Positions 22,328 to 24,838 of a stretch of DNA of 64,000 nucleotides are shown in pieces. Within the stretch, counting starts at the first letter, position 1. The number at the start of each line of letters is the position of its first letter. The notes below the pieces were generated by a model. That model was given only the letters and a program-made list of their open reading frames with translations. It searched no databases and was not told the DNA's origin. Source of the DNA: Cyanobacteriota bacterium (GTDB taxonomy: Bacteria > Cyanobacteriota > Cyanobacteriia > CACIAM-69d). The stretch lies in the NCBI GenBank assembly GCA_022402445.1, contig JAKRSF010000005.1, positions 124,001-188,000 of the forward strand, read 5' to 3'. A program made the translations under genes and the position numbers.

Positions 22328-22498
22328 ATGCCCTACACCACCGAAGAAGGCGGCCGTCTCAACAACTTCGCCAAGGAACCGCGCATGTACACGGCGGAGC
22401 CCCCGAACGGCGAGCAGAAGCGCAACTATGTGATCCTGGGGGCCTTGGGTGCGGCCCTGGTGGTTGGCGTCCTGACGGTGGCCTTCGTCGTTTCCTAG
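22328..22498 (+). CDS. ssl1498 family light-harvesting-like protein, 56 residues
   Basis: A short cyanobacterial protein easily missed by length cut-offs. The N-terminal half is hydrophilic with EGGRLNNFAKEPRMYTAEPP, the C-terminal half is a single membrane helix (NYVILGALGAALVVGVLTVA). This layout matches the ssl1498 family, annotated as light-harvesting-like, which resembles the start of high-light-inducible/LHC proteins without the chlorophyll-binding helix. It is probably in the thylakoid membrane. Its molecular role is not established. Own promoter-like elements precede it, and it stands alone between thiG and a convergent diguanylate cyclase gene. Confidence 0.85.
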   Translation: MPYTTEEGGRLNNFAKEPRMYTAEPPNGEQKRNYVILGALGAALVVGVLTVAFVVS

Positions 22499-22512: not shown

Positions 22513-23496
22513 TCAATCTGACTGACATCGGGGCGTTTGCCCGCGTTCCCCATCCCTGTCCGCCGTGGCGGGGGTGGGGTTTGTGTTGGGATGGGCCGTA
22601 GCCGGTGCGGTGATCCCCAGCCAGCAAACCTGGTTCTTGCCCTGCCGCTTGGCGTCGTAGAGGATGCGATCGATGAGTTCGTAGTTGGTATCGACGGAGA
22701 GGCGCGGATCCAGGGCGGCGAGGCCGATGCTGCTGGTGACTAGGGGGGCGCTTGGTCCCTGGGTGTCGGCTAGGGGGAGGGCGGCAATTTGTTTACGGAT
22801 GGTTTCCGCGATCGCGATCGCATCCGGCAGGGGACAAGCCTCCAGGAGGATCGCGAACTCATCGCCCCCCAGCCGCCCCGCCACATCCCTGGCCCGGATG
22901 GCCTGCTTGAGCACCGTTGCCACCGCCATCAGCAGGCGATCGCCCGCCCCGTGGCCGTAGGTATCGTTGACGCCCTTGAAACCGTCGAGATCCAGCAGCA
23001 TCAGCACACTGGTCCGCCGCGATCGCGCCTCCCCTACCGCCTCCCGCGCCGCCTCCAAGGCCCGATCCACCGCCCGCAGCAGCCCCGCACGATTGCACAG
23101 GCCCGTCAAGGGATCGAGCAGCGCCAAACTGCGGGCCTCCTGGAGAACGCGCGGCATCTGGAGCAGCTTGGGACCGTGGATGGACAGCACCCAAGCGGTA
23201 TAAAAACTCACCAGGCCCGTCACCCATTTCCAGACCCCCTCCACCCAATAATCCGCGTGCCAAATATTCCAAGCGCTGAGGCCATGGCCAATGCCGCAAC
23301 TGAGAATAAAGGCGGCAAAGCACTTGAGAACCGGTTGCAGACCCACACTCACTTCATTCCGATGGATCAGGATCAACGTCGGAATTGAAAAGTAAGCGAC
23401 CATCGTCAATAGGTCACCCCCCATGTGCAGGTACGTCAAGGGCTTATTCCATAGAAAACAACTGCCGTGGGGCATCAATAGCAGAACGGTAGCCAT
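22513..23496 (-). CDS. Diguanylate cyclase with ethylene-receptor-like N-terminal membrane domain
   Basis: A 327-residue protein. Residues about 15-110 form three membrane helices matching the ethylene-binding domain of plant ETR1 and Synechocystis Etr1: helix 1 has D28 and Y35 before SIP (GGDLLTMVAYFSIP), with the exact ETR1 spacing of D25, Y32, I35 and P36, and helix 2 has FILSCGIGH with C67 and H71 in the C-x3-H copper-ligand pattern of ETR1 C65/H69. A GGDEF domain follows from about residue 130: active motif GGDEF at 210-214, product-inhibition site RARD at 201-204. It should make c-di-GMP under control of a copper-bound ligand such as ethylene. I use the ATG at 23496; one at 23475 is also possible. 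Confidence 0.88.
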   Translation of the reverse strand: MATVLLLMPHGSCFLWNKPLTYLHMGGDLLTMVAYFSIPTLILIHRNEVSVGLQPVLKCFAAFILSCGIGHGLSAWNIWHADYWVEGVWKWVTGLVSFYTAWVLSIHGPKLLQMPRVLQEARSLALLDPLTGLCNRAGLLRAVDRALEAAREAVGEARSRRTSVLMLLDLDGFKGVNDTYGHGAGDRLLMAVATVLKQAIRARDVAGRLGGDEFAILLEACPLPDAIAIAETIRKQIAALPLADTQGPSAPLVTSSIGLAALDPRLSVDTNYELIDRILYDAKRQGKNQVCWLGITAPATAHPNTNPTPATADRDGERGQTPRCQSD

Positions 23497-23933
23497 AGGA
23501 CATGGGGGGCAGGGGTGGAGAAAAAGGGGCCGACGGAGCTGGATTTTTGGGTGAATGAAGGGAAATTTTCCCAATTCCCAGACAATTTATAAAATCATTC
23601 AAGTTAAAGCTTGATTTGTTTAATGATCAGCTTCAATCAAGTTGGATTTTGTTTGAATGGATGAATTTCATTTGCTTTGAATTTGATTAAGAATTAACCA
23701 GCTTAAGTTTAATTTTCTGAGAAGAACTTGATTATTTCCAGGCTATTTCAGGAAATTTCAAATGTCAAACTTTGGACATCAAGGCTTGAGACTGAGGGAT
23801 GTATGGCCGTATTTGTTTGGGGTGGGAGGATGGCCAAAAAGTGATGGGGGTCGCATCCCTAAGGCGCTCAAAACAGCCGGGGGCAATCTTTGGTAGGATG
23901 TGCTAAGGGGCACAAATTCACGGGGCCGCAGTT
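23497..23933. other. AT-rich divergent intergenic region, no gene
   Basis: 437 bases between the divergent diguanylate cyclase and pseudouridine synthase genes. About 23575-23770 is strikingly AT-rich for this genome, with repeated phrases such as GAATTTGATTAAGAATTAA and TTTCAGGAAATTTC. No HIP1 site and no credible ORF. It probably holds the promoters of both genes; I cannot assign exact boxes. Confidence 0.5.
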
Positions 23934-24766: not shown

Positions 24767-24838
24767 TGGGCGATACTGGATTTGAACCAGTGACCTCTTC
24801 CGTGTCAAGGAAGCGCGCTACCCCTGTGCTAATCGCCC
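24767..24838 (-). tRNA. tRNA-Val (anticodon GAC)
   Basis: A 72-base cloverleaf on the minus strand. The 7-bp acceptor stem pairs GGGCGAT with ATCGCCC, followed by discriminator A. The anticodon stem-loop CTTCC-TTGACAC-GGAAG places GAC at 24806-24804. The T arm reads CACTGGTTCAAATCCAG. CCA is not encoded. No intron. Confidence 0.95.

Follow-up and report, generated by a model that had tools for sequence, protein, structure and literature searches.

To our knowledge, those bacterial ethylene receptors that have been characterised use histidine kinases for signalling. SynEtr1/UirS (slr1212) of Synechocystis sp. PCC 6803 carries an N-terminal ETR1-type ethylene-binding domain (EBD) of three membrane helices, followed by a light-sensing GAF domain and a histidine kinase that signals to a response regulator, and it binds ethylene (PMC5812497). 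Direct binding of ethylene has also been shown for AzoEtr1 of Azospirillum brasilense, an EBD-PAS-histidine kinase with a partner response regulator, which affects biofilm (PMC11819568). In ETR1 the Cu(I) ligands are C65 and H69, and I35, P36 and I62 are essential (PMC6586836, PMC13012798). That EBDs have diverse outputs in bacteria has already been remarked in a review.

The protein described here shares the three-helix EBD with SynEtr1 and the same seven site residues with AzoEtr1. In contrast to SynEtr1 it has neither the kinase pathway nor the GAF domain, and unlike AzoEtr1 it is not built on EBD, PAS and kinase; a GGDEF domain is attached directly. We consider it probable that it is a one-component, membrane-bound, copper-dependent ethylene receptor controlling c-di-GMP synthesis, where we infer the ligand, the copper, the enzyme activity and the sign of the response.

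The gene, its two domains and the candidate ethylene site

The window, i.e. the whole stretch of 64,000 nucleotides that was analysed, contains the EBD-GGDEF coding sequence on its minus strand (22513..23496; 327 aa, ATG at 23496, stop codon at 22513-22515). An in-frame TTG at 23574 is an alternative start that would give 353 aa; the ATG was preferred because the starts in relatives lie near the MPHG motif. Pfam places the EBD at residues 20-114 (23155..23439, minus strand; ETR1_N, PF25487, 86-89 bits, with 86.3 bits and E=1.8e-24 in the 327-aa protein against a cut-off of 27 bits). The GGDEF diguanylate cyclase domain occupies residues 125-289 (22630..23124, minus strand; 134.6 bits, E=3.4e-39) and the match spans the full 161-position model (positions 1-161). 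No domain beyond these two was found in the window protein by Pfam, a histidine kinase or kinase-like cytoplasmic domain being absent.

The initial annotation, made from the sequence, had read the protein as a fusion of an ethylene-receptor-like membrane domain with a diguanylate cyclase, and both halves are borne out by profile search, family conservation and a confident structural model. It had suggested a profile search against ethylene-receptor N-terminal models, naming the lack of a significant match as the outcome that would count against the reading, and the ETR1_N match is significant; the structure prediction that it also suggested gave a confident model (pLDDT 88.4) with three N-terminal helices. 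A chance motif match is ruled out by the profile E-value together with the conservation in the family.

The degenerate copies described below also just pass the ETR1_N model (27-39 bits against the cut-off of 27), so that the profile match alone is insufficient and the site residues have to be considered. By alignment, the window protein carries 7 of the 7 residues needed by ETR1 for ethylene binding. On the minus strand, helix 1 contains Asp28 (ETR1 D25; 23413..23415), which is invariant in the family, Tyr35 (ETR1 Y32; 23392..23394) and Ile38-Pro39 (ETR1 I35, P36; 23380..23385). Helix 2 contains Ile64 (ETR1 I62; 23305..23307) and the counterparts of the two Cu(I) ligands, Cys67 (ETR1 C65; 23296..23298) and His71 (ETR1 H69; 23284..23286). 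Counted from the ATG at 23496, D28, Y35, I38-P39, C67 and H71 lie exactly where the initial annotation had put them. The exact list and numbering of the seven residues in ETR1 are reportedly those of Wang et al. 2006. Of the 98 EBD columns, 40 were invariant in an initial alignment of 17 members, and the seven site columns all fell within this invariant set (p about 0.0013, a statistic that ignores phylogeny). The window protein also has Lys90 (23227..23229, minus strand), aligned with the helix-3 lysine of kinase EBDs, which we take to be K91 of ETR1. This lysine has been suggested to couple the Asp to signalling in ETR1 (review PMC13012798).

The AlphaFold2 model, built from a 67-row alignment (mean pLDDT 88.4, pTM 0.77), predicts transmembrane helices at residues 18-44 (23365..23445, minus strand) and 51-77 (23266..23346, minus strand), and a third helix, the signalling stalk, at residues 83-126 (23119..23250, minus strand). 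Helix 3 is unbroken in the model from the membrane up to the start of the GGDEF domain, after which the GGDEF fold follows, a predicted shape suited to signal transmission. Taking 1.5 Å per residue from the outer end of the predicted helices, D28 and C67 come to lie at an equal membrane depth of about 15 Å, with H71 (about 9 Å) and K90 (about 10 Å) about one turn away and Y35 at about 25 Å. With a rotation of 100 degrees per residue, helix 1 has D28, Y35 and P39 on a common face, from which I38 is about 80 degrees off, and helix 2 has I64, C67 and H71 on one face. This helix-register calculation, which is arithmetic and not a measurement on the model, is consistent with a single site. EPR on ETR1 is not in full agreement with AlphaFold for the ethylene-binding domain (review PMC13012798). 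PDB sequence matches were confined to the GGDEF half and Foldseek matches were GGDEF proteins, both with and without coiled coils; no solved structure of the membrane part was among the matches listed in either search.

The cyclase domain contains the RxxD inhibitory site R201-A-R-D204 (22885..22896, minus strand) five residues ahead of the catalytic motif G210-GDEF (residues 210-214; 22855..22869, minus strand). A complete GGDEF domain with an RxxD site had been annotated before, and with the whole Pfam model covered and R201-A-R-D204 intact this description holds. Some GGDEF proteins are inactive, and one relative has GDDEF in place of GGDEF, as would be expected if the domain served as a c-di-GMP or GTP receptor instead of an active cyclase. 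We regard that reading as very improbable for the window protein, as it has the GGDEF motif, the metal and GTP residues, which are kept throughout the EBD-GGDEF family, and the nearly invariant RxxD site, and as both its sequence and its model match known cyclases, among them DgcB, WspR and SiaD. The GGDEF motif is intact in all distinct family members except the GDDEF one (L110:5001-5861, plus strand; the identical protein sequence occurs in L160), whose cyclase activity is, judged from its motif, doubtful.

The genome of 4.08 Mb (13 contigs), cyanobacterial to judge from its relatives, contains three ETR1_N matches: besides the window protein these are L001, an ordinary EBD-histidine kinase of 469 aa, and L003, a second EBD-GGDEF protein. 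It also contains 26 GGDEF matches (25 open frames), 13 EAL matches and two ComFB-domain matches; PilZ gave no match at threshold. The window gene is flanked by a 56-aa ORF, with thiG beyond it, and by a pseudouridine synthase gene, whereas in Nodosilinea-type genomes the EBD-GGDEF gene lies between gcvT and a gene of no assigned identity; there is thus no shared operon partner, and the neighbourhood comparison found neither a kinase nor a regulator gene conserved as a partner between the window and the other genomes. The 56-aa ORF (MPYTTEEGGRLNNF...; 22328-22498, plus strand) is convergent and ends 14 bp from the stop codon of the EBD-GGDEF gene. It had no Pfam match; we presume that it resembles a small photosystem II assembly protein (Psb34). 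Around the EBD-GGDEF gene, Rfam returned nothing except one tRNA gene (24767-24838, minus strand; 65 bits), and promoter and terminator scans did no better than on shuffles.

The EBD-GGDEF family, its siteless sister copy and other fusions

The initial annotation had treated the protein as a single case; it is in fact one of a family, of which 25 distinct members were found, and is accompanied by a degenerate sister copy. A profile search found a full-length EBD-GGDEF match in 25 of 390 cyanobacterial genomes, in five family-level groups, which rules out an assembly or annotation artefact. An alignment of the window EBD and its relative L079, scanned against 84,980 species genomes, yielded a further 15 EBD-GGDEF proteins from cyanobacteria, about 300 aa long, in Nodosilinea, Leptolyngbya, Phormidium, Tildeniella, Shackletoniella, Kaiparowitsia, Spirulina and others. 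The scan patterns (MPHGSCF and WNIWH-D) exclude the seven site residues, yet they select for the EBD subfamily of the window protein, and EBD-GGDEF proteins with other EBDs may therefore have been missed. With both searches pooled there are 25 distinct sequences, 24 of which have all seven residues; the exception (L173:1554-2438, minus strand) is a natural variant with Gly instead of the copper-ligand Cys67, which could serve as a control.

The EBDs of this family differ from those of the kinases in several ways. The window EBD scores 86-89 bits with ETR1_N, versus 120-157 bits for most kinase EBDs. The spacing between P39 and I64 is 24 residues in every family sequence, the window protein included, whereas 45 of 48 kinase EBDs have 25 and another 2 have 26, i.e. 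the loop between helices 1 and 2 is one residue shorter. In an EBD tree (few columns, pattern-selected sequences) the family forms a branch separate from the kinase EBDs, with its own conserved motifs MPHGSCF and WNIWH. The helix-3 lysine, too, is often missing, with Thr or Ser in its place in 16 of 24 scored members. The lower score, the shorter loop and the separate branch mean that the ligand may differ, and with the lysine changes added, the ligand or its affinity could be another than in the kinase receptors. The Cu(I) site could accordingly sense copper itself, another small gas or alkene, or the redox state, and gate the cyclase in response. We hold this to be unlikely, if the most serious of the alternatives, as the residues kept in 24 of the 25 members include the non-copper Tyr, Ile, Pro and Ile, while a pure copper site needs only part of the set.

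Ethylene as the ligand remains the preferred reading, and for the role of the site residues the family itself supplies a natural control. The second EBD-GGDEF protein of the same genome (L003:1393-2373, plus strand; G000:C9:100681-101463), also 327 aa, has an intact GGDEF domain but has lost 6 of the 7 site residues (D to H, Y to C, I to L, I to L, C to L and H to Q). Its ETR1_N score is 30 bits in the genome search and 27.4 when scanned as a protein, and orthologues (L060, L061) are present in two genomes of the same family. Compared to the window protein the siteless copies have 19-27% identity in the EBD and 49-53% in the GGDEF domain, which reverses the order seen for the intact relatives (55-63% and 38-47%, respectively). 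Both domains appear, from substitution counts, to be under purifying selection in close pairs: dN/dS in intact pairs ranged from 0.05 to 0.15 in the EBD and from 0.05 to 0.22 in the GGDEF domain (simple pairwise counts, few pairs), and in the siteless pair it was 0.19 for the EBD versus 0.05 for the GGDEF domain (simple count).

These paralogues keep the cyclase without the site, and the enzyme can evidently be retained in this way. The membrane domain might then be a mere anchor or dimeriser, with a cyclase that is constitutive or otherwise controlled and with ethylene residues that were inherited unused. This is improbable for the window protein, since across families the EBD is more conserved than the cyclase and drift would not have left the seven residues intact in several family-level groups. 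Of the natural controls for a role of the site residues, the siteless paralogues are the best.

A GGDEF-only tree, which also took in further GGDEF proteins encoded by this genome and by relatives, had a branch with 20 EBD-GGDEF proteins together on one side (support 97/96; 86 in a quick tree). The fusion therefore probably had a single origin, and repeated chance fusion within the family is ruled out by this single branch. In the same tree the window protein has the siteless L003, L060 and L061 as its sisters (support 99/95). The likely order of events, as read from the sequences, is one fusion, then a duplication in the family-level group of the window, followed by loss of the site from one of the two copies and its retention in the other.

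EBDs were also found on other enzymes of c-di-GMP turnover. A 602-aa protein (L171; G596:C139:2508-3395) combines an EBD with an intact site with GGDEF and EAL, all three domains over the cut-off, and a 1190-aa protein (L170; G008:C236) has an EBD followed by PAS domains, GGDEF and EAL (domains read from the sequence). Two Betaproteobacterial proteins (L120:4989-7613 and L123) are of the type EBD-PAS-HD, the last domain being HD-GYP-like (PF13487), and, judged from their domains, put an ethylene-type sensor on a probable c-di-GMP phosphodiesterase. Weak EBD-like regions with GGDEF-EAL (L062, G001:C14; L068, G017:C1) have Asn for the key Asp and keep C-x3-H; in a plant receptor the Asp-to-Asn change is reported to lower the affinity for ethylene about 100-fold (review PMC13012798). 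In the GGDEF-only tree the GGDEF domains of the GGDEF-EAL proteins, L171 included, fall outside the window family and thus point to separate fusions. The fusions to GGDEF-EAL, PAS-GGDEF-EAL and PAS-HD-GYP look independent of the window family.

The wider statement, that the window protein is a copper-dependent ethylene-gated diguanylate cyclase, the first kinase-less ethylene receptor and one of several independent recruitments of an EBD (to GGDEF, GGDEF-EAL, PAS-GGDEF-EAL and PAS-HD-GYP), we favour only slightly.

Proposed signalling and its direction

In the proposed mechanism, three membrane helices would form an ETR1-type site in which Cys67 and His71 of helix 2 hold Cu(I), by analogy with ETR1, and the aligned residues Asp28, Tyr35, Ile38-Pro39 and Ile64 would complete the pocket. 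Ethylene would bind the Cu(I) and shift the helices, and the change would travel down the helix-3 stalk, unbroken in the model, into the cytoplasm. There, following the general mechanism of cyclases, the stalk would alter how the two GGDEF domains of a dimer meet. The GGDEF domain would make c-di-GMP, limited by the RxxD site, and c-di-GMP would in turn adjust motility or attachment.

As for the sign, on balance we expect that ethylene lowers the cyclase activity and frees the cell to move, because ethylene lowers the receptor output in plant ETR1 and in SynEtr1. Lower c-di-GMP usually favours motility, and a lowered cyclase output would therefore fit faster movement in Synechocystis. In that organism slr1212 is negatively regulated by ethylene (PMC7700396) and movement is faster with ethylene (PMC5812497). 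Ethylene also raises biofilm in Synechocystis (PMC11819568), so that behaviour cannot settle the sign.

Comparison with known systems

Full-text searches of the open-licence literature found no paper in which an EBD-GGDEF protein was described or tested, and ethylene is absent from the main text of a 2022 census of c-di-GMP signalling stimuli. If our reading is true, a single protein could convert ethylene gas into a c-di-GMP signal, and an EBD that drives a cyclase directly would be a second route for ethylene into bacterial behaviour. It would also offer a simple readout, c-di-GMP formed in vitro or in E. coli, for a problem still open in plants, namely how ethylene bound to copper within the membrane alters the cytoplasmic part of the receptor. 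With 327 residues the protein is a compact receptor for laboratory work, with its siteless sister copy at hand for comparison.

Among cyanobacterial EBD proteins, GeiEtr2 of Geitlerinema sp. PCC 7105 is similar in that its gene lies in a group with one that encodes a protein with a diguanylate cyclase domain (PMC6682694); unlike in the window protein, however, EBD and cyclase are on separate proteins, and GeiEtr2 contains PAS, GAF and receiver domains. In SesA (cyanobacteriochrome-GGDEF) and Cph2, also from cyanobacteria, sensor and diguanylate cyclase output are likewise combined in one protein (PMC5812497), but their input is light, received by a soluble chromophore domain. A membrane-helix sensor joined to GGDEF is found in the membrane diguanylate cyclases with MASE-type sensors, of which MASE1 is listed as a sensor without known purpose (PMC8846402); in contrast to MASE1, the membrane part of the window protein matches ETR1_N.
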